Source: Acidobacteriota bacterium (GTDB taxonomy: Bacteria; Acidobacteriota; Terriglobia; 20CM-2-55-15). Taken from it: a stretch of 64,000 nt of DNA. The notes under the pieces were generated by a model. The model did not search any database. It had not been told where the DNA came from and saw only the letters and a program-made list of their open reading frames with translations. A program made the translations under genes and the position numbers. Of the stretch, positions 27,253 to 38,379 are shown in pieces. The DNA is taken from NCBI GenBank assembly GCA_022821145.1, contig JAJEEE010000025.1, positions 82,050 through 146,049 of the forward strand. The letters run 5' to 3'. How positions within the stretch are numbered: position 1 is the first letter of the stretch; every line of letters begins with the position of its first letter.

Positions 27253-27627
27253 TTGACGATCAGACGGATCAAGAGCGAAGCCGACTACGAGTCCGCGTTG
27301 AAGACGATTGACGGACTGATGGGCGCCCCGGCCGATACTCCCGAAGGGGACGCGCTGGAAGTCCTGGTGACGCTCGTCGAGGCATACGAAGTCGAGCGAT
27401 GGAAGATCGAGGCCCCGGACCCGATCGCGGCGATCGAGCACATCATGGAAGCCCGCGGTCTGCTGCAGAGAGACTTCGCGGCGCTCATCGGTTCGCAACC
27501 TCGCGCCTCGGAGGTACTCAACCGTCGGCGCCCGCTCACTCTGCCGATGATCCGCACCCTGTCGCTCGAGTGGAACCTCCCGGCCGACGTGCTTGTCCGG
27601 GAATACAGTCTGGCCGAGAGTCGATGA
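27253..27627 (+). CDS. HigA-like antitoxin (COG5499), TTG start
   Basis: The 124-residue protein matches the HigA family throughout: RRIKSEADYESALKTID, then TPEGDALEVLVTLVEAYE, the PDPIAAIEHIMEARGL helix, and an XRE-type HTH (RDFAALIGSQPRASEVLNRR then PLTLPMIRTL). It starts at TTG 27253 with AAGGGG 6 nt upstream; no ATG or GTG fits the family N-terminus. It should repress its promoter. No intact toxin gene is next to it, so it may be an orphan or act on another toxin. Confidence 0.75.
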   Translation: MTIRRIKSEADYESALKTIDGLMGAPADTPEGDALEVLVTLVEAYEVERWKIEAPDPIAAIEHIMEARGLLQRDFAALIGSQPRASEVLNRRRPLTLPMIRTLSLEWNLPADVLVREYSLAESR

Positions 27628-27741
27628 CGCAGCGGTTTCAAAGTGACGGACGTGCCGAACGCTGATCCTGCTAACAGATCTACGGATTCAACGTCGAAGG
27701 CTGGCAACTGCAGTCGTCAGGAATTCGCAGGAGGTTTAGAG

Positions 27742-28101
27742 ATGAGAATCGTCGTTCTCGTTGGCGCGACCGCGATGTGTGGGGTGATGTTCAACGTTCC
27801 GATCCACGCACAAGATGGCCTGGAATCACTTCGGTCAATTGACGAGATCATTGACAGAGGAGTCGAGGGCGACAATCGGCTTATACTCGACGTCCTCACG
27901 GAGGCGCCTGTCGAGGAACTCTTGGCGATCTCCGAGCAATTGATCCGTGAGAACGCGGCAAATGACACCATAGTGCCGCTAGTCAGAATCACCTTCTATT
28001 ATCCCGATGAAGCTGGCACCGACGCTATGCCTCGATACAGATTCGAACGCTCAATATTGAATTTCGCAGAAATTCGAGAGCGTCGAGGACTGCGGAACTA
28101 G
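27742..28101 (+). CDS. Small secreted protein, unknown function
   Basis: The 119-residue protein has a Sec signal (residues 1-23, ending IHAQ) and a helical mature part (IDEIIDRGVEGDNRLILDVL and VEELLAISEQLIRE) with no Cys and no family I recognise. A strong AGGAGG at 27729-27734 supports the ATG at 27742. Base composition is clearly less GC-rich than its neighbours, hinting at recent acquisition. It is convergent with the giant regulator gene, 29 bp away. Confidence 0.55.
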   Translation: MRIVVLVGATAMCGVMFNVPIHAQDGLESLRSIDEIIDRGVEGDNRLILDVLTEAPVEELLAISEQLIRENAANDTIVPLVRITFYYPDEAGTDAMPRYRFERSILNFAEIRERRGLRN

Positions 28102-28130
28102 AATACGATGCATCCCGCCTGACACGCGGC

Positions 28131-31100
28131 TCACGCGTCCGGTCCGCGCGCGTATTTTTGCACCGGCAGCTTGCGGTACGGGCGGAAGTCCGGTTGGCAA
28201 CGATTCCTTCGGAGGAAGTCCATGAACTTCCGGTACTCCGTGTCCTTGACCCGAAACAACGAAGCCAGCGACTTGTAGGATCCACGCGTCGCCCGCAACC
28301 CCACGTCCATCAGCGCCATGACCTTCTCTCTGGATATGTCACGCTCCTTGTAGCGCGTGTGAACAGCGCTCCAGAAGTTCTGGCGGCCATCGCGAATGTC
28401 CTCGAACCATTCCTGAATTTCGTCCTCTCGATCGACGTCGACGAGACCCGTGTCGACCGCGACTCTGCGGATCGTCGCACCGTCGGTCGTCATGAAATAG
28501 GAGCGTTCCACCACGTTCTTCAATTCACGGATGTTCCCCGGGAAACTGCAGGCCGACAAGTTCTCCATGGCCACAGGGGCCAGCTTCTTGCGTGTGCCGT
28601 GCATCGAATTCAATCGACGGATGAAGTCGTGTGCGAGTTCCGGAATATCCTCGCGTCGTTGCCTGAGCGGCGGCACCTGGACATGAAGCACTTTGAGCCG
28701 GTACAGGAGGTCTCCGCGGAACTCTCCCTGTCGGACCAGTTTCTCCAGGTTCTGATTCGTAGCCGCGATCAACCGCACATCCACAGGCCGGCCCGTGGTG
28801 TCGCCGACCCTTCGGACTTCCCGTTCCTCGAGAACACGCAGCAACTTGGCCTGCAGGGACGGGCTCATGTTGGATATTTCGTCCAGGAACAACGTGCCGC
28901 CCGTCGCTTCCTCGATCAGCCCGTGGCGATCGACGCTGGCGCCCGTAAAGGCGCCTCGCCGGCTGCCGAACAACTCGCTCTCTATCAAGGTCTCCGACAC
29001 GGATCCGCAATCCACCGTGACCAGGGATCTTCCCGAGCGCGAGCTGTTCGCGTGTATGGCTTGAGCGACGAGTTCCTTGCCGGTGCCGCTCTCGCCTTCG
29101 ATCAGAACGGTCGCGGTGCTTCCGGCCGCGATCCGTATCAACTTGCGGACGCGCGTGATGGCTCGCGACGATCCGATGATTTCCGGAAACTCGGAATCGA
29201 CCGATTCGGGTTTCGTCTTCGCAGGGACCGACTCGAGCGTTGCGGCCAAGGCGCTTGAAGCGATGCCTCCGAGAGCCACCAGGTAATCGATTTCCAGCTC
29301 CGGCAGCGTTCGATCGGACCGCTCGACGTATAGACCGCCGAATTGGGATTTCCGGTATGCAAAAGGGATCCAGGCAACGAACGGCGGTCCGGGTCGCGTG
29401 GTCGGGCGGACATCGTGACGGCCGAAGAACGTTCGTTCCGGGAAACGTTTGTGAAGGCTCGCGATTCTCCGACACGTGCCGGCGTCGAGATTGGCCTTCT
29501 TTGGAAGGAAGTCTTCGGCGTCGTGCACATTGAGATAAACGACGAAGCGCTGGCGAGAAAGCCGCGACACGGCTCGGATGATCGCCTTCGCACACTCGTC
29601 GATGTCCGACGCTCCGGAAAGTGACGTTGAGGCGTCGCGGAGAGCCTTCAGATAGTCGTGAATCAGAGTGTGAGACACACTCGGCGCAGATCGGAGTTCC
29701 GTCGAGGGCTTCATCCCTTCGAGCATCTCACGCGCCTCCTTTCTCCATGAGCTGTTCAGATAGGGTCCACGGCTTCGCGCGGGTATCTGTCCGGCAAGCT
29801 CCGTTGCGATATCCGCGGCCGCCTTTGCGTGTTCGTAGGCCCTGGACGCGTTCCCGCGCGAGCGCTCGACCGCCGCGATCAGGACTTCCGCTTCGGCCTG
29901 GATTTCCGGTTCCGGAAGACGTTGGGCCATCCGCCTCGCGACCGTTGCATAACGGATCCGGTCGCGACGGCTCTCCAACGCTTGCGCGATTCTCAACGCG
30001 ATGCGCGGCCGATGAACGCCCAAATCGAAACGCCGCGCCAACCGCGCCGCTTCACGGAGCCCGGCGCGCGCTGCGTCGATCTCATTCGATCGGAGACGCG
30101 ACTCGGCGATCACGATGAGAATTCGGCACTGCTGATGTCGCGTCCCCAGCTTCAACGACGTTGCCAGGGCCGCCTCGAGACCAGCGGTTCGATTCATGCC
30201 GGGCGGCCCGGCGAGCCCGGAAATCAACGCGAGCTCGACACGCATGAAGTCGGCCCCCATCATGGGGTTCGACCGCAGCGACTCGACGGCTTCGCGAAAT
30301 CTCGCTGTCTGATGCGTTCGGCGATACAGTTCGGCGGCCGTCAGCGCCGTCAGCGTCCGGGCCAAGCCGGTCGTCCGCCCGCGCAGCCTTCGTTTGGCCG
30401 ACGCGATCGACTCCTGCGCGGCGGCGTAGCGGCCGGTGTACGTTTCCAATACCGCCTTGTTGGCCGCCAGAATGGCCAAGTGCGTTCTCTCCGCATGTCC
30501 GTAGACGCCAGACCGGAGGAGCAGCGCCTCCCCCCGAGAGAACGACGGAACGGCTTCGATGAAACGCCCCGTCACAGTCTGGCAAGCTCCAAGACTCCTC
30601 AGATTGACCGCCTCCGTGACGACGAGTTTCCGTTCACGGGCCAGATGGACAGCCCGCTCGTGACAATCGATCGCCTCGGCAATCCGTCCGAGTTGACTCA
30701 GACACATGCCCCGGTTCTCCAGGGCGCTTGGCGCAAGACCGGCGTTCCGAGAAGTCTCGATCCGATCGAACGCGTCCATGGCCGCGAGCGCTTCGGCCGG
30801 TCGGTGCAGAACCGCAAGGACGCCTGCCTTCCGGACCAGGTAACCTCGTTTATCCACGAGTGAAAGGTTGCGAGACAGGGAGTCGCACCGTTGCAATATC
30901 GCGACGGCGGCAGCCGAGCGTCCGGACGCCGCATATGCGTTCCCAAGTTGCATCAACGCTTCGAAGAGCGAACGAGATTCGATCTCCGGATGAAGAACAG
31001 CGGCCTCCAGATCGCGCACATGGTTCTCCGGACGATCGGGATCGCACGCACAGAGCCCCCGATATAGCTGGACACGCAGCGCCGGACTCAGCCCGTTCCG

Positions 31101-33218
31101 GGTCCGGATCCGATTCAAGATTCTTCTGGCCGGTTGAACCTTGCCGACTTGTACGAGACATTCGGCGTACGACAGGTCCAAGTGCGCGGGGACTTCCCGC
31201 TTGAGCCGTCGATAGAGCGTTCGCGTCGTCGAGAGAAGTTCGGTTGCCGAGTGGAAATCGCGTTGGTTCAATCGTCGATTCGAGGAACCTTCGTAGGCCG
31301 ATATGGCTTCGCTCGTCAGATTCGAATTCGAAGCGTGAAAGCCGAGGCGCTCGTCGTCCGGTTTTTCGCACGCCAGATCCCGATACAGCCACTGATGCAG
31401 ATTTCGCCGGCGTGTGCGATCGACGCTGTCGTGGATCGCCTCGCGGACGCCGTCATGGCGGTAAGCCACGAGTTCGTCCCGTTCCTCGACGATTCCACAG
31501 TCCTGGAGTGCGGCGACCGAGGACGGCAAAGCGCGAACCCCCATCCCGGCCGCGGCTCGTTCCAGGAGCCGTCGGGGCATCGGTTCGGAATGGCATGACA
31601 GGATCTCGGCCACCCGGCGAACCTCCGGAGCCAAAGCCCGGAACGTCCGGAGCAGGAGATCTCGACTCCGAGGAAGCAGTCGACGCGTTCTGGCGCCTTC
31701 GTACCGGGAATACTCTTCCACGAGCAACGGGATCCCGCCGCTCTGGTGGGCGATCCATTCCAGCCGGTCCGTGTCGAGGCTGACACTTCTTGCCATCGAC
31801 AGCGTTTCGGACTTCGAGAGCGGGCCCAAGCGAATGCGGCCGGCGGTTACGTCCGGTCGTGGATCGTCCACCAACAGTTGGCGCAGCAGGAGTGGCGTTC
31901 TGTTGGATCGTGCAGTGAAGACGAAGATCCACGATGACTCGCCGGCCCGCAGCAGGAGTTGTTCCATCACCCGAACGGTTCCGTCGTCCCACCAATGACT
32001 GTCGTCGAAAACGACGCGGAATGGCGAGAACCGCCGCGACAGGCGTATCAAGGCCCCCGCCAGGTCCGCGACCATCTTCTCCGTAGTCGGTGGGGATGCA
32101 CCTGAATCGCCTCGCGCCGGCACGGGCAAATCCGGGAGAAGACGGGCAATTGTCGCTTCGTAGGCTCGTCCTTCCGATTCGAACCAATCGGCGAGGGCTG
32201 TCTCCTGTCGCTTGAAACACTGATCGATGACTTGAAGAATCGGCTCAAAGCATCGGTCGTTGCGCTCGTGTGACCGGACAACGAAGACGGCCCGTTGACG
32301 AAATTCCGCGCGGAAGGCCAATTCTCGAATGAAGCGGGTCTTTCCGACCCCCGCGTCCGCTTCCACGATCGCGGCGGCAACGCCTGGTTTGCTTTCGTTC
32401 AGCAACTTCATCATGGTCTTCAACTCGCCTCGTCGTCCGACGAGCGCGGCGCGTTCCGCGGCCATCGTGTTCAAACATCGACCGGACACCCACTCCGAGA
32501 GTGCCTGGCGCCGTACGGAACCTGACGGGTCGATCAAACGCATGACGAAGCAGGAGAAGTTCCGCGTCACGTCCGCGGCTTCGTGGAGGGGAACCGGAGC
32601 GGCGTGGAGATACTTGTAACGCAGCAGATCAACGTTCGAGTCGTTGAAGATCGTGCGTCGCGCATAACTCTGGTAGAGGGTGGCGCCGAGCGAGTACAGG
32701 TCGGCATCGAGGCGTGGCTGCCCCCCGAGAAGCAATTCGGGCGCGGTGAAGTGGACGGCGCTCGCATCCAGGTGCTCCGGCCGGGTTCGAGGCAAGCCCC
32801 CGTCGACGAGTTGGACATCGTCGCGGTCGACGAGAATGTTGCTTGGCTTGATGCGTCCGTGGACGAATCCGTGCCGCTGAAGGAGACGACACGCCGCTAT
32901 GAGCGCTTCAACCCGGTTGTCTGACGGTTGATCGACGGGCCACGGTACGTGATCGGAATGAACCCGAACAGAGTAGAAATCTCCCCGTGGCGTATATCCC
33001 GCGTAATCGAGGCGCGAGAGCTGACGGTGCTGGAATCCGCGGCTCCAAGCCAGTTGTCTTTCCAACCCGGTCCCGCTGACGAACGTGCCGGCCCGGACGC
33101 ACTTGACGACTACCGCGTCAGCGTCGGTCCAACGGTCCCGGGCAAGGAACGAGACCATGTTCCCAGATCTGCGAAGAACCTTGTGGACCTCGAAGCGGTT
33201 TATCAGAAAGCGCTGCAT
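28131..33218 (-). CDS. Giant hybrid regulator: pseudokinase - AAA ATPase - TPR - GAF - sigma54 AAA+ activator
   Basis: This 1695-residue protein has: (1) a Ser/Thr kinase fold (~8-250) with a candidate Lys39 and an APE-like motif (159-161), but HGRIKPSN (120-127) has Arg122 where the catalytic Asp should be, and DGG (139-141) replaces DFG, so it is probably kinase-dead; (2) a STAND/AAA_16 ATPase (~255-600) with EADAGVGKTR; (3) helical TPR-like repeats (~640-1130); (4) a GAF-like domain (~1180-1310); (5) a sigma54-interaction AAA+ domain with GESGTGKE (1375-1382), GAFTGA (1422-1427) and GGTLFLDEI; (6) a C-terminal helical DNA-binding region (~1625-1675, GSYKSLASLFRVKDTEYRKF). GAFTGA is what contacts sigma54. 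Signal and targets are unknown. The upstream region carries a matching promoter and repeats. Confidence 0.85.
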   Translation of the reverse strand: MQRFLINRFEVHKVLRRSGNMVSFLARDRWTDADAVVVKCVRAGTFVSGTGLERQLAWSRGFQHRQLSRLDYAGYTPRGDFYSVRVHSDHVPWPVDQPSDNRVEALIAACRLLQRHGFVHGRIKPSNILVDRDDVQLVDGGLPRTRPEHLDASAVHFTAPELLLGGQPRLDADLYSLGATLYQSYARRTIFNDSNVDLLRYKYLHAAPVPLHEAADVTRNFSCFVMRLIDPSGSVRRQALSEWVSGRCLNTMAAERAALVGRRGELKTMMKLLNESKPGVAAAIVEADAGVGKTRFIRELAFRAEFRQRAVFVVRSHERNDRCFEPILQVIDQCFKRQETALADWFESEGRAYEATIARLLPDLPVPARGDSGASPPTTEKMVADLAGALIRLSRRFSPFRVVFDDSHWWDDGTVRVMEQLLLRAGESSWIFVFTARSNRTPLLLRQLLVDDPRPDVTAGRIRLGPLSKSETLSMARSVSLDTDRLEWIAHQSGGIPLLVEEYSRYEGARTRRLLPRSRDLLLRTFRALAPEVRRVAEILSCHSEPMPRRLLERAAAGMGVRALPSSVAALQDCGIVEERDELVAYRHDGVREAIHDSVDRTRRRNLHQWLYRDLACEKPDDERLGFHASNSNLTSEAISAYEGSSNRRLNQRDFHSATELLSTTRTLYRRLKREVPAHLDLSYAECLVQVGKVQPARRILNRIRTRNGLSPALRVQLYRGLCACDPDRPENHVRDLEAAVLHPEIESRSLFEALMQLGNAYAASGRSAAAVAILQRCDSLSRNLSLVDKRGYLVRKAGVLAVLHRPAEALAAMDAFDRIETSRNAGLAPSALENRGMCLSQLGRIAEAIDCHERAVHLARERKLVVTEAVNLRSLGACQTVTGRFIEAVPSFSRGEALLLRSGVYGHAERTHLAILAANKAVLETYTGRYAAAQESIASAKRRLRGRTTGLARTLTALTAAELYRRTHQTARFREAVESLRSNPMMGADFMRVELALISGLAGPPGMNRTAGLEAALATSLKLGTRHQQCRILIVIAESRLRSNEIDAARAGLREAARLARRFDLGVHRPRIALRIAQALESRRDRIRYATVARRMAQRLPEPEIQAEAEVLIAAVERSRGNASRAYEHAKAAADIATELAGQIPARSRGPYLNSSWRKEAREMLEGMKPSTELRSAPSVSHTLIHDYLKALRDASTSLSGASDIDECAKAIIRAVSRLSRQRFVVYLNVHDAEDFLPKKANLDAGTCRRIASLHKRFPERTFFGRHDVRPTTRPGPPFVAWIPFAYRKSQFGGLYVERSDRTLPELEIDYLVALGGIASSALAATLESVPAKTKPESVDSEFPEIIGSSRAITRVRKLIRIAAGSTATVLIEGESGTGKELVAQAIHANSSRSGRSLVTVDCGSVSETLIESELFGSRRGAFTGASVDRHGLIEEATGGTLFLDEISNMSPSLQAKLLRVLEEREVRRVGDTTGRPVDVRLIAATNQNLEKLVRQGEFRGDLLYRLKVLHVQVPPLRQRREDIPELAHDFIRRLNSMHGTRKKLAPVAMENLSACSFPGNIRELKNVVERSYFMTTDGATIRRVAVDTGLVDVDREDEIQEWFEDIRDGRQNFWSAVHTRYKERDISREKVMALMDVGLRATRGSYKSLASLFRVKDTEYRKFMDFLRRNRCQPDFRPYRKLPVQKYARGPDA

Positions 33219-33261
33219 GAATCACGGAATCGGTTGTGTGGTGATCGGTGACACCCTGCCT

Positions 33262-33277
33262 TGCATTTCAGATGCCA
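33262..33277 (-). promoter_or_regulatory. Candidate sigma54 promoter (-24/-12) of the giant regulator
   Basis: On the minus strand TGGCATCTGAAATGCA has GG and GC separated by 10 nt, close to the sigma54 consensus (TGGCAC-N5-TTGCW; two mismatches). Transcription would start near 33251, about 33 nt before the ATG at 33218. The downstream gene encodes a GAFTGA activator, which makes autoregulation plausible. Confidence 0.5.
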
Positions 33278-33338
33278 GAACGACAATTCATGTGTTTGAT
33301 GGGTTTCCGAGAAATCGTGACTGAAAGAACACCGATGT

Positions 33339-33388
33339 GTCACATAATATTCGCTATAACCCGGCACTTTATGTAACGATTATGTGAC
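33339..33388. promoter_or_regulatory. Candidate upstream activator sites: inverted/direct TTATGTRAC repeats
   Basis: GTCACATAAT (33339-33348) and ATTATGTGAC (33379-33388) are perfect 10-bp inverted repeats with centres 40 bp apart. A third copy, TTATGTAAC (33369-33377), lies in direct orientation 11 bp before the last. They lie ~88-137 bp upstream of the predicted sigma54 start, the usual range for enhancer binding sites. Confidence 0.5.
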
Positions 33389-33647
33389 TAACACAGCACT
33401 TTTAAGCCGATAGAGGCCGTCATTGGCAACGCAACTCTGAGGACATGGCGCGTTCGCAGCCCCCCTGACGCGTCGTTCCCAACTGTGGAAGGGGGGTCTG
33501 CGACCGACCGTCACCCCGCCGGGGGCGGGAATGCGCCTGGCCGCCGGCGGGCTTGAACGTCTCGGCCGGATGCGCCGTCACCGAACCTACCCAAACTCCC
33601 CGCCCCTCGGATAGAATGGCCGCATTCCCATCGGACGGCCCCGACCC

Positions 33648-34607
33648 ATGATCCAGGTCGAGAACCTCACCAAGAAATTCAACGGAACCCCCGCGGTCTC
33701 GGACGTGTCCTTCAGCGTCGAGGACGGCGAGGTCCTCGGCTTCCTGGGCCCGAACGGCGCGGGCAAGACGACCACCATGCGCGCCATCACGGGCTTCCTG
33801 CCGGCCACTTCCGGCCGCGTCACCGTCGGAGGCTTCGACGTTTTCGCCTCGCCCATCGAAGCGCGACGGCGGATCGGTTACCTCCCCGAGCATCCGCCGC
33901 TGTATCCCGAGATGACCGTCGACGGCTACCTGCGCTTCGTCGCCCGGATCAAGGGAGTGCCGTCGTCCGATCTGCGTTTCGAGTTGGACCGCGTCATGGA
34001 TACGGCCCGGATCGATGACATGGGCGGGCGGATCATCTCCCGCCTCTCCCGGGGCTACCGTCAGCGGGTCGGGCTGGCCCAGGCGCTCGTCGGCGACCCG
34101 CCGGTGCTGATTCTGGACGAGCCCACGGTCGGGCTCGACCCGAAGCAGATCCACGAGGTGCGCGAGTTGATCCGGAGCTGGAAGGGACGGCACACGGTCG
34201 TGCTGTCGACGCACATCCTGCCCGAGGTCGAGCAGACCTGCCATCGCGTGGCCATCATCGCCCGGGGCCGCATCGTGGCCGTCGGCACGCCCGCCCACCT
34301 GGTCGAACGACTGGAGCGCTCCGCCCGGATCGTCATGGACGTGGCCGCGCCGGCCGGCGAGGCCGCCGCCGCGCTCGGCGGCGTTCCCGGCGTGGCGGAC
34401 GTCCGCGTGCTCGATGCGTCCGACGGGCGGGCGCGTCTCGAGGTCGAGGCCGCCGGGGTCGGCGCGGACGTCGAACCCGAGCTGGCGCGCGCGATCGTCG
34501 AACGAGGGTGGGGGCTGTTCGGGATGCAGTCGTCGACGATGAGCCTGGAGGACATTTTCCTCGAGCTGACCACCGACGAGCCGCCCGGCGGCGAGGCGGG
34601 GTCGTGA
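33648..34607 (+). CDS. ABC transporter ATPase, GldA-like
   Basis: The 319-residue ATPase has Walker A (GPNGAGKTTT), a Q-loop region (YLPEHPPLYPEMTV), the signature SRGYRQR (degenerate LSGGQ), Walker B (VLILDEPTVGLDP) and the switch His (STHIL), followed by an ~80-residue C-terminal domain. This layout and the following genes match the GldA-GldF-GldG exporter group. Energises the permease encoded 4 bp overlapping downstream. Translation starts at ATG 33648 with no evident RBS. Confidence 0.88.
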   Translation: MIQVENLTKKFNGTPAVSDVSFSVEDGEVLGFLGPNGAGKTTTMRAITGFLPATSGRVTVGGFDVFASPIEARRRIGYLPEHPPLYPEMTVDGYLRFVARIKGVPSSDLRFELDRVMDTARIDDMGGRIISRLSRGYRQRVGLAQALVGDPPVLILDEPTVGLDPKQIHEVRELIRSWKGRHTVVLSTHILPEVEQTCHRVAIIARGRIVAVGTPAHLVERLERSARIVMDVAAPAGEAAAALGGVPGVADVRVLDASDGRARLEVEAAGVGADVEPELARAIVERGWGLFGMQSSTMSLEDIFLELTTDEPPGGEAGS

Positions 34608-35380
34608 GAAACGTCCTCACCATCGTCGGGCGCGAGTTGCGCAGCTACTTCGTGTCGCCCGTGGCATACGTCGTCTTGGGGGTGTTCGTCCTCTTGTCCG
34701 GCGTTTTCTTTCAGGCCATTCTGGTCCAGACGCTCCAGATGGTGCAGACCATCCAGGCCCAGAGCTTCGGCGGCACGCCCCAGCCCATCGACGTGCCCGG
34801 GGAGATCAGTCGCCAGTACTTCGGGACGCTCGGCGTGATCCTGCTCTTTATGCTGCCGATGATCACGATGGGGCTGTTCGCGGAGGAGAGGAAACGCGGG
34901 ACCATCGAGTTGCTCCTGACCGCGCCGGTCACCGATCTGCAGCTCGTCGCGGGCAAGTTCGGCGCGGCCGTCGCCTTCTATGCGGTCCTGCTCGGGGTGA
35001 CGACGGCCCCGATCTCGATACTGTTCCTGTATGCCGACCCGGTCTTGGGGCCGCTGGCGACCGCCTACCTCGGTCTATTGCTGTACGGCGCGAGCCTTCT
35101 CGCGCTGGGACTGTTCGTCTCGACGCTGACCGATAACCAGATCGTGGCGGGGGTCATGACGTTCGGTCTCATCCTGTGGCTCTGGATCGTCGACGTCCTG
35201 GGCGGGGCGGCCGCCGGAACCACACGCGCCGTATTGACCCACCTTTCGATCCTGACGCCTCTGGGCGACTTCATGAACGGCGTGCTGGCGGTGTCGAACC
35301 TGATCTTCTACATGTCGCTGGCGACGCTCGGGCTGTTTCTCACCTACCGATCGATCGACGCGTGGCGGTGGAAAGGATGA
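34604..35380 (+). CDS. ABC-2 type permease, GldF-like
   Basis: The 258-residue protein has six predicted membrane helices with an ABC-2 pattern, including MGLFAEERKRGTIELLLTAP (the conserved coupling segment after helix 2) and the VAYVVLGVFVLLSGVFF first helix. GTG at 34604 overlaps the ATPase stop (GTGA). A periplasmic loop of ~50 residues follows helix 1 (MVQTIQAQSFGG region). It forms the membrane channel part of a GldAFG-like system. Confidence 0.88.
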   Translation: MRNVLTIVGRELRSYFVSPVAYVVLGVFVLLSGVFFQAILVQTLQMVQTIQAQSFGGTPQPIDVPGEISRQYFGTLGVILLFMLPMITMGLFAEERKRGTIELLLTAPVTDLQLVAGKFGAAVAFYAVLLGVTTAPISILFLYADPVLGPLATAYLGLLLYGASLLALGLFVSTLTDNQIVAGVMTFGLILWLWIVDVLGGAAAGTTRAVLTHLSILTPLGDFMNGVLAVSNLIFYMSLATLGLFLTYRSIDAWRWKG

Positions 35381-36843
35381 AACGCAGCCGCTTGTCCCGT
35401 TACGGGGCCAATTCCCTGTTCTCGGTCGCGCTCCTGGTCGGCACTCTCGGCATCGTCAACTATCTCGCCGTCCGGCACGACCGGCGGTGGGACATGACCG
35501 CCGAGGGACTCAACACGCTGGCGGAGCAATCCATGGTTGCGGCCGACGCCATCGTCGACGACGTCCTGATCCGCGCGTTCTATCCGGGCGGCGACGACGG
35601 CGCCCTGCGGCGCCTGCTCGAACTCTACGAGGACCGGAACCCGCGGATCCGCCACGAGTTCATCGATCCGGACCGTCAGCCGCAACTCGCCGAGCAATTC
35701 GAGGTGACCGAGTACGGCCTGACCGCCAACCCGTTGACCGGCCAAGGTCTCGCGTTCGGCACGCTGATCCTGGAACGGGGCGAGCGGATGGAACGGGTCG
35801 AAACGGGGGCGCCGGCCAGCGAGGAGGACATCACCAACGCGCTGATCCGACTGGCGCGGGATCGATTCGAGACCGTTTACTTCATCGAAGGGCACGGCGA
35901 GAAGACCGTCCAGGGCCAGGAACCGGACGGATTGGACACGGCGCGCGCCCGCCTGGAGCGCGAGGGATACACGGTGGGGACCATCAACCTGATCGTCGAC
36001 CAAGCCGTTCCCGACGATGCGTCGGTTCTGGTCTGGCCGGGGCCGCGGACCGAGCCGTTCGACGAGGAAGTCGCGATGGTCGACGCCTACCTGAACGATG
36101 GAGGCAGTGTTCTGGTCATGCTCGATCCGCCTCCCGCGGCGTCGCTGGGGTCGCTGCTGTCGCGATGGTCGATCGAGCCCGGCGACGACTTCGTCGTCGA
36201 CGTCAACCCGCTGGGCCGGTTGATGGGCATCGGCCCGGAAGTGCCGCTGGTTACCGAGTACACCTTCCATGCCATTACGAGCCGCATGCACGGATTGATG
36301 ACGTTCTTTCCGCTGGCGCGCTCCATCACGGGCGTCGGGGCGCCTGACGGGGCGGTCACCACGCTCGAACTCTTGAGGTCGAGCGCGCGCAGTTGGGCCG
36401 AAACGGACCTGGAGAGCACCGAGGCCGGGTTGGACCCGGAAGTGGACCGTGCCGGGCCCGTGGGCATCGGGGTCGTGGCGACGGCCGATTCGGCCGCCGG
36501 TCCGGAGAGCGCGGAATCCGCGCGACTGGTCGTGCTGGGCGACTCGGACTTCGCCGGTAACGGCTTCTTCCCGCAGCAGGGCAATGGGGACCTTTTTCTC
36601 AACATCGTGCGCTGGCTGGCCGAGGACGAGAGTTTCATTGCCGTTTCCGTGCGGGCGCCCGATGATCGGCCGTTACTCCTGACCCCCACCGGGGCGGCCG
36701 TTACCGGGTACCTGGCCATATGGCTTCCACTGGCCACAATCGTGGCTGCGGGAATCGTGGTTTGGTGGACGCGCCGCGAGGACGCGGCCAAATCGCGCCG
36801 CGAGGACGCGGCCAATCCGCGCCGCGAGGACGCGGCGTCGTGA
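35377..36843 (+). CDS. GldG-like ABC auxiliary protein with C-terminal tandem repeats
   Basis: The 488-residue protein has an N-terminal signal-anchor helix, a large periplasmic domain with the GldG/IFT52-like segments TVYFIEGHGEKT and GSVLVMLDPPP, and a C-terminal helix (residues ~440-462), followed by a cytoplasmic tail with three copies of RREDAA-x-x. In other bacteria this family partners GldA/GldF. The cargo here is unknown; gliding itself is not implied because the family is widespread. ATGA overlap with the permease and GTGA overlap with the next gene show tight coupling. Confidence 0.8.
   Translation: MKRSRLSRYGANSLFSVALLVGTLGIVNYLAVRHDRRWDMTAEGLNTLAEQSMVAADAIVDDVLIRAFYPGGDDGALRRLLELYEDRNPRIRHEFIDPDRQPQLAEQFEVTEYGLTANPLTGQGLAFGTLILERGERMERVETGAPASEEDITNALIRLARDRFETVYFIEGHGEKTVQGQEPDGLDTARARLEREGYTVGTINLIVDQAVPDDASVLVWPGPRTEPFDEEVAMVDAYLNDGGSVLVMLDPPPAASLGSLLSRWSIEPGDDFVVDVNPLGRLMGIGPEVPLVTEYTFHAITSRMHGLMTFFPLARSITGVGAPDGAVTTLELLRSSARSWAETDLESTEAGLDPEVDRAGPVGIGVVATADSAAGPESAESARLVVLGDSDFAGNGFFPQQGNGDLFLNIVRWLAEDESFIAVSVRAPDDRPLLLTPTGAAVTGYLAIWLPLATIVAAGIVVWWTRREDAAKSRREDAANPRREDAAS
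36772..36840 (+). repeat. 24-bp tandem repeat, about three copies, in-frame
   Basis: Three near-identical units begin at 36772, 36796 and 36820; each starts CGCCGCGAGGACGCGGC and encodes RREDAA plus two variable residues. The last unit is shortened and contains the stop/start overlap with the next gene. Slippage in such repeats would change tail length in 8-residue steps. Confidence 0.8.
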
Positions 36844-38162
36844 GATTCAAGGGCACGGCGGTCCTGTTCGCCGTTTTTGCCGCGCTGGCGGGCTGGGTGT
36901 ACTGGACCGACGTCCGCGGGCGAGAGGGCCGCGAACGGCGGGAAGCTGCAGCCCGACGGATCCTGGATGTCGATGCGGACGCGATCGTCGAGCTTCGGTT
37001 GACCTACCCCGGCCGGTCGATCGCCGCGCGCCGGGCCGGCGCCGGATGGGAGTTCATCGAGCCGCCAGGCCTGGAAGCCGATCCGGCGGCCTGGGACACC
37101 GCGGCCGCGAACATAGGGCGGATCGACCGCGACGACACGGTCGCCGCGGACGCGGCCGATCTGGCCGTCTACGGGTTGGATCCCCCCGCCGTCCGCGTGA
37201 GCGTCCACCTGGAAGGCGGGACGGTCGAAGAAATCCACTTCGGCAACGCCAATCCCCGCGGCGCGTTTCGCTATGCGATGCTCTCGTCGAACCCGGAGGT
37301 TTTCCTGGCGGCCTCGTCGTGGGCCTCGCTCTTCGAAAAGTCCACGACGGACCTGAGGGACAGGACCGTCTTGCGGTTCGACCCGGACTCCGTGGAATCC
37401 ATCGAGGTCCGCGGCGCCAACCCGTTGCGCATCGTGCGCGACCCGGAGGGCTGGCGCCTGTCGGCGCCGATCGACGCGCGCGCCGACGATGGGCAAGTCG
37501 ACGCGCTGTTGTCGGCAATGCAGTTCGCTCGCGCGCGGGACTTCGCCGACGACGCCGAACTGGAAACCCCCGCCTGGGAAATCGAACTGAACGCCGGCGA
37601 GCGGGCGCACGTGTTGCTCCTCGCTCGTCCGGCCCAAGAACTGCAGGGGGCAATCCATGCCCGCGACGCGTCGCGCGAGCCGGTCTTCGTCGTCGACCCG
37701 GAAATCGCGCGGATCCTGGCCGAACCCCTGCTGGCGTGGCGCGACCGCCGCATCGCCATCTTCGACCGCGCCGCCGTCGGCGGACTCGCCATATCCAGCG
37801 CCGACGACTCGATCACGCTGCGTCGTTCCGACGAGAATTGGCGGACGACGAACTCGATTCCAGTCGACGGAACTCGCGTTTCGGCCATGCTCGACGCGCT
37901 CGAGTTCGAGGAGGCGGTCGACATCGTGGACGTCCCGGCGGCAACGGCGGCGTTTGGGCTCGACAACCCCCGCCTGCGCGTGGTTCTGACCGATGCGGGC
38001 GGCGCCGCACTGGTGCAGGGCGCCTTCGGCGCCGAGGCCGGCGGCGCGGACCGTGTGTACTGGCGGTCCGGGGGCGATGCGGCCGTCAAGGTGGTGTCCA
38101 GGGGCGTCTTCGACCGTTTCGACGTGACGGAGGCGGAACTGGGTCCGGCACAGGGGCCGTAG
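36840..38162 (+). CDS. DUF4340-family protein of the GldAFG-like operon
   Basis: The 440-residue protein has one N-terminal helix (TAVLFAVFAALAGWVYWTD) and a periplasmic part with repeated DUF4340 modules: the pattern of an IVELRLTY-type strand, WEFIEPPGLEAD, then a YGLDPPAVRVSV block recurs as a second AFGLDNPRLRVVL block near residue 375. DUF4340 proteins are typically encoded after GldG homologues. Function unknown. Start GTG 36840 overlaps the upstream stop. This is the last gene of the operon. Confidence 0.8.
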   Translation: MRFKGTAVLFAVFAALAGWVYWTDVRGREGRERREAAARRILDVDADAIVELRLTYPGRSIAARRAGAGWEFIEPPGLEADPAAWDTAAANIGRIDRDDTVAADAADLAVYGLDPPAVRVSVHLEGGTVEEIHFGNANPRGAFRYAMLSSNPEVFLAASSWASLFEKSTTDLRDRTVLRFDPDSVESIEVRGANPLRIVRDPEGWRLSAPIDARADDGQVDALLSAMQFARARDFADDAELETPAWEIELNAGERAHVLLLARPAQELQGAIHARDASREPVFVVDPEIARILAEPLLAWRDRRIAIFDRAAVGGLAISSADDSITLRRSDENWRTTNSIPVDGTRVSAMLDALEFEEAVDIVDVPAATAAFGLDNPRLRVVLTDAGGAALVQGAFGAEAGGADRVYWRSGGDAAVKVVSRGVFDRFDVTEAELGPAQGP

Positions 38163-38379
38163 GTCCGAGCGAAACGTCCCATCGCGCGAGTCGGCCCCGC
38201 CGGTTCGCGCCGCGTTTCGACTTGGACGCCGCGCGTTAAAATCCCGAATGCCGGATCGTTTCTATGATTTTTGGAATATTCGGCGATGGCTCATCTCACC
38301 AAGTGACACGTTCGAAAGCGTTTACAGTTCGGCAATGGAATTGCTTGTATCAGTACGTACCGCGAAGTCTCCGTAGCCC
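38163..38379. other. AT-richer non-coding stretch after the ABC operon
   Basis: No gene is apparent. It contains promoter-like sequences on the plus strand: TATGAT (38263-38268), and TTTACA followed 18 nt later by TTGTAT (about 38318-38348). These could drive a small RNA ending at the terminator at 38561-38595. Short open frames here have no start signals and no family resemblance. Confidence 0.4.

Follow-up and report, generated by a model that had tools for sequence, protein, structure and literature searches.

Nla28 of Myxococcus xanthus, an activator that works with sigma54, takes part in the regulation of its own operon according to the excerpted text of PMC9765219 and PMC7910581. For DVU2894 and DVU1949 of Desulfovibrio vulgaris, both one-component sigma54 activators, autoregulation has been proposed (PMC4641369, likewise in excerpt). 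Here we describe an acidobacterial locus at which a gene for a sigma54 activator is preceded by a promoter-like element and by three repeat sites. The locus lies on a contig of a 4.18-Mb genome in 89 contigs, from an uncultured lineage, within a 64-kb stretch referred to as the window, and all coordinates are positions in that stretch. Comparison was made with a sister genome, an Acidobacteria MAG, and with more distant relatives. From the sequence we propose that the promoter is probably autoregulated, or else regulated by a cascade.

Results

The -24/-12 element that the initial annotation had placed facing the activator gene was found there: CTGGCATCTGAAATGCA reads along the minus strand from 33278 to 33262, with GG-N10-GC in a TGGCAC-N5-TTGC-like context, and 43 nt separate it from the activator ATG at 33218. 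Inspection by eye of the bases before this ATG revealed no Shine-Dalgarno sequence. Transcription from a sigma54 promoter is expected to start about 12 nt downstream of the GC. In the window, 20 sites score at least 10 as sigma54 elements, and the activator's element is one of the two that reach 11. The gene rpoN, whose presence had been suggested as a check, was detected in the genome by profile search (PF04552, E 1.1e-56). The stretch 33262-33278 is probably a sigma54 promoter, a candidate whose use in vivo we infer.

The intergenic region between the activator and the divergent ABC gene measures 429 bp and has 58% GC overall, compared with 45.5% in the 222 bp on the activator side (33219-33440), in agreement with the AT-rich island noted earlier. 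Two further features of the initial annotation were recovered, a perfect 10-bp inverted repeat and a third copy of TTATGTRAC, TTATGTAAC at 33369-33377. On the plus strand the arms of the inverted repeat read GTCACATAAT (33339-33348) and ATTATGTGAC (33379-33388); they are 100% complementary over the 10 bp, with 30 nt between them and their centres 40 bp apart. In the direction of the gene, site 1 (GTCACATAAT) comes first, followed by site 2 (GTTACATAA), site 3 (ATTATGTGAC) and then the promoter; the centres of sites 1 and 2 are 11 bp apart and those of sites 2 and 3 29 bp, and the promoter comes after another 60 bp. Read on the gene strand, sites 1 and 2 form direct repeats one helical turn (11 bp) apart, and the inverted site 3 lies 29 and 40 bp from the other two, corresponding to 2.8 and 3.8 turns. 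Placing the start by the 12-nt rule puts the repeats at about -87 to -136. A 14-bp direct repeat (TAACCCGGCACTTT/TAACACAGCACTTT) was dropped because its second copy carries three changes in the sister species. The features are collected in Table 1.

Table 1. Positions of the features at the activator locus
Feature	Position	Strand	Remarks
Activator C-terminal 115 aa	28134..28478	minus	also present in short paralogue; probable DNA-binding domain with weak resemblance to Fis
Activator gene, 1695 aa	28131..33218	minus	degenerate kinase, AAA_16, TPRs, sigma54 AAA+, lid, C-terminal domain
Candidate sigma54 -24/-12 element CTGGCATCTGAAATGCA	33262..33278	minus	GG-N10-GC, 11/13 consensus positions, identical in sister species
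Repeat site 3, ATTATGTGAC on gene strand	33339..33348	minus	proximal arm of inverted repeat
Repeat site 2, TTATGTAAC (third copy)	33369..33377	plus	motif search
Repeat site 1, ATTATGTGAC	33379..33388	plus	distal arm of inverted repeat
Divergent ABC ATPase gene	33648..34607	plus	-10-like TAGAAT shortly upstream, recurs in relatives

The gene downstream of the promoter had been annotated as a sigma54 activator, and this identification stands. Its sigma54 AAA+ domain is intact (PF00158, E 9.8e-67), with GESGTGKE (Walker A), GAFTGA and LFLDEI (Walker B) all present, and Pfam also reported a kinase domain (E 1.6e-9), AAA_16, TPRs and the lid that accompanies Sigma54_activat. The kinase domain was aligned in seven proteins, the window's, four from the same family and two from another family. 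The HxD aspartate is missing from the window's domain and from the four same-family domains (HGR, HGA, HGR, HGG, HGS) and is retained in the two other-family proteins (HAD, HGD). Since this aspartate has been lost, the kinase is probably inactive, and the fused domain has probably turned into a pseudokinase.

The C-terminal domain occurs in 14 of 151 genomes, among them all 11 of the family, and a second time in the window's genome, in a short orphan paralogue on contig C34. It had no Pfam match. Its structural model is helical (mean pLDDT 78.6), and fold searches with this model returned no useful match among solved structures. Alignment to Fis-type tails by hhalign gave the expected register, at a probability of only 18%.

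We propose that the activator drives its own promoter through a three-site enhancer in positive feedback, a reading to which we give an even chance. The element at 33262-33278 would serve the activator gene as its sigma54 promoter, whose enhancer would consist of the three TTATGTRAC sites that lie 87-136 bp ahead of the expected start. We infer that the C-terminal domain of the activator itself binds these sites; the DNA would then loop, and the AAA+ domain would melt the complex of sigma54 and polymerase. A signal would switch on the N-terminal sensory part (degenerate kinase, AAA_16, TPR) and thereby raise the activator's own expression.

Exact TTATGTRAC has three copies in the 4.18-Mb genome, all at the activator promoter, and the reversed control also contains three. 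The form RTYACATAA adds one further site, in whose 3-kb locus no sigma54 element scores at least 11, and neither exact nor relaxed motif searches gave another target with a sigma54 promoter. The expectation that the motif would give a handle on other targets did not hold up, as the genome search for TTATGTRAC returned the activator locus only; the motif cannot simply serve to read off a regulon. One could go further and see a private feedback switch, the exact enhancer site being found nowhere else in the genome and the activator mainly controlling itself, a view we regard as very improbable.

Alternatively, the promoter might be driven by a different activator in a cascade, for example by the C34 paralogue, which shares the C-terminal domain. 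The paralogue is 46% identical to the activator over the AAA+ and C-terminal domains, and activator cascades are reported for Myxococcus in the literature excerpts; against this, the genome search showed exact TTATGTRAC to be absent near the paralogue and a nearby sigma54-like site, and we consider such a cascade unlikely.

The self-driven promoter can be compared with other sigma54-like sites of the genome. Scores were computed for 14 stretches, among them regions around nine other strong sigma54 activators and the sister locus L084. Eight sites reached at least 11, two in L071 and one each in L072, L073, L075, L076, L082 and L084, that of L084 being the sister copy of the activator's element. 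In the regions around these nine activators, several of the sites scoring at least 11 lie near activator genes. Upstream of its own gene such a score is found for the window's activator only (1/10 genes), the other nine reaching 7-10. Both L071 sites, on contig C79, read TGGCATG-N4-TTGCA, with the same -24 element TGGCAT as in the window. Each also carries an inverted repeat of the ACAAGT/ACTTGT type, which begins at -54/-32 in one and at -53/-32 in the other, and they precede genes resembling duplicated orphan permeases and efflux membrane-fusion proteins (named by reading). This pair is likely to form a small regulon; its sites, at L071 8658 and 17452, are 9 kb apart and near a sigma54 activator gene. 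The L072 site has TTCCGGTT/AACCGGAA at -80/-45, and those of L073 and L075 have 7-bp pairs only. The other likely sigma54 promoters of the genome thus share the build of the activator's.

In the sister species the promoter is unchanged (0/72), and all three sites are kept except for one outer base, the last base of site 1 (C to T). The activator differs from its sister copy at 1.9% of bases and 2.8% of third positions; the repeat stretch 33338-33403, with 6 of 66 positions changed, is more diverged than the gene. Because the locus is only about 2% diverged, conservation in the sister gives weak support. Over 27264-38167, divergence from L084 is about 2% in the activator and the ABC gene and 11% in 35380-36843, a sharp change that points to recombination or to unequal constraint.

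A long relative follows an HD/GAF/GGDEF gene in each of four same-family genomes (assigned by Pfam in two of the four and by reading in the others). Ahead of three of these four operons no sigma54 score of at least 9 was found, and the paired repeat motif occurs in none of the four genomes. The paired motif is confined to one genus, the exceptions being five matches with two mismatches each, spread over four genomes from other genera; as far as seen, the arrangement of promoter and repeats would be a feature of the window's genus.

The relatives also encode a family of small peptides with the core (I/V)EELExK(I/V)AP, often followed by DGGETVLPLP, which was seen in no member of the window's genus. 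Of 41 genomes searched for EELExK(I/V)AP, 10 contain it, with 26 matches in total, often in tandem (loci include L129, L141, L140, L132, L147 and L134); the reversed control gave one. In G002, G004, G006 and G032 the peptides lie close to the activator operon, and elsewhere they adjoin aconitase-family and M17 aminopeptidase genes. They had no Pfam match, and a single sub-threshold NCBIfam match concerned one peptide. The idea that relatives of the activator drive the peptides via sigma54 was rejected, the best score upstream of the 26 loci (for two of which the upstream sequence covered barely 50-110 nt) being 10, with none of at least 11. The window's lineage, in which the private switch considered above would have been kept, has neither the HD/GGDEF gene nor the small peptides that are neighbours of the activator gene in relatives.

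The divergent ABC operon was also considered as owner of the repeats. An ABC match is present in all 12 relatives, the best being 53-64% identical in 10 genomes outside the genus and 38% in the eleventh, G014; the upstream comparison covers 11 stretches from those 10 genomes. None of the 11 contains TTATGT/ATGTGAC-type words or an upstream sigma54 score of 10. By eye, a TAGAAT, TAGGAT or TAAAAT box is found near the ABC start in 8 of 11, and the window's own box is GATAGAATGG. Since a -10-like TAGAAT precedes the ABC operon itself and the ABC orthologues are without the repeats, these are more likely the activator's, and the comparison speaks for the activator as the gene to which the distal repeats belong. 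The same orthologues weigh against a reading in which an unrelated transcription factor uses the repeats as operators, controlling either the activator or the ABC operon, and the sigma54 element functions independently of them or has no use. There is room for sigma70-type elements in the AT-rich island (one match, CTGAAA-16-CATAAT, 33321-33348, plus strand) and the sigma54 consensus is not enriched genome-wide, as such a reading would allow, but the repeat distances suit an enhancer, and we find unrelated operators improbable.

Chance was assessed with 5000 dinucleotide shuffles each of the 429-bp intergenic region and the 222-bp stretch. A perfect inverted repeat of at least 10 within 100 bp arose in 179/5000 shuffles of the former, and accompanied by a third copy that matches at 8/9 or better in 11/5000; for the 222-bp stretch these numbers were 78/5000 and 8/5000. 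A gene-strand sigma54 score of at least 11/13 was reached in 24/5000, all of these being local tests of a feature chosen from the 64-kb window, so that the true surprise is smaller. The promoter element and the repeat array are unlikely to arise by local chance. Genome-wide, TGGCAYN5WTGCW matched 6 times and its reversed control 17 times, and the figures for TGGCACRN4TTGCA, one mismatch allowed, were 16 and 49; as the consensus is rarer than in reversed controls, the pattern alone proves nothing. A coincidence of element and repeats in a low-GC intergenic stretch, to which the frequency of the inverted repeat alone, the choice from 64 kb and a paired motif limited to one genus bar scattered two-mismatch matches would be congenial, is highly unlikely given the joint rarity of promoter and array, their textbook spacing and their position facing a sigma54 activator.

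Discussion

Several points count against self-activation: the consensus shows no genome-wide enrichment, the four same-family genomes lack the layout, the C-terminal domain is without a Pfam or useful structure match, and no Shine-Dalgarno was seen. The layout and distances fit the autoregulated activators in print, as the excerpts of PMC9765219, PMC7910581 and PMC4641369 describe them. Full-text literature searches found little on such sigma54 regulators in Acidobacteria, and a plasmid BLAST with the region gave no match. The locus offers a concrete and easily tested candidate promoter and enhancer for a kinase-like, TPR-bearing type of sigma54 activator in Acidobacteria.

Among protein families, NCBIfam NF038230 (GPMC system transcriptional regulator) matches the C-terminal domain (E 3.9e-6), whereas the whole activator, at 190.4 bits, stays far under the curated cut-off of 1200 bits. 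With DVU2894 and DVU1949 the locus shares a proposed autoregulation and an upstream motif, which is conserved in the DVU systems (PMC4641369, in excerpt). The window's motif is a different one and limited to a genus, whereas that of DVU2894 is conserved across orthologues. As with Nla28, short repeated half-sites (8 bp in Nla28) lie upstream of a -24/-12 promoter (PMC9765219, PMC7910581, in excerpt). Nla28, however, is described there as a two-component regulator that has several targets and uses other half-sites, whereas the window's activator has a sensory part of degenerate kinase, AAA_16 and TPRs, and its exact sites are found at its own locus only. Autoregulated sigma54 activators are already in print, as these excerpts attest, and the locus described here would add one candidate to them.
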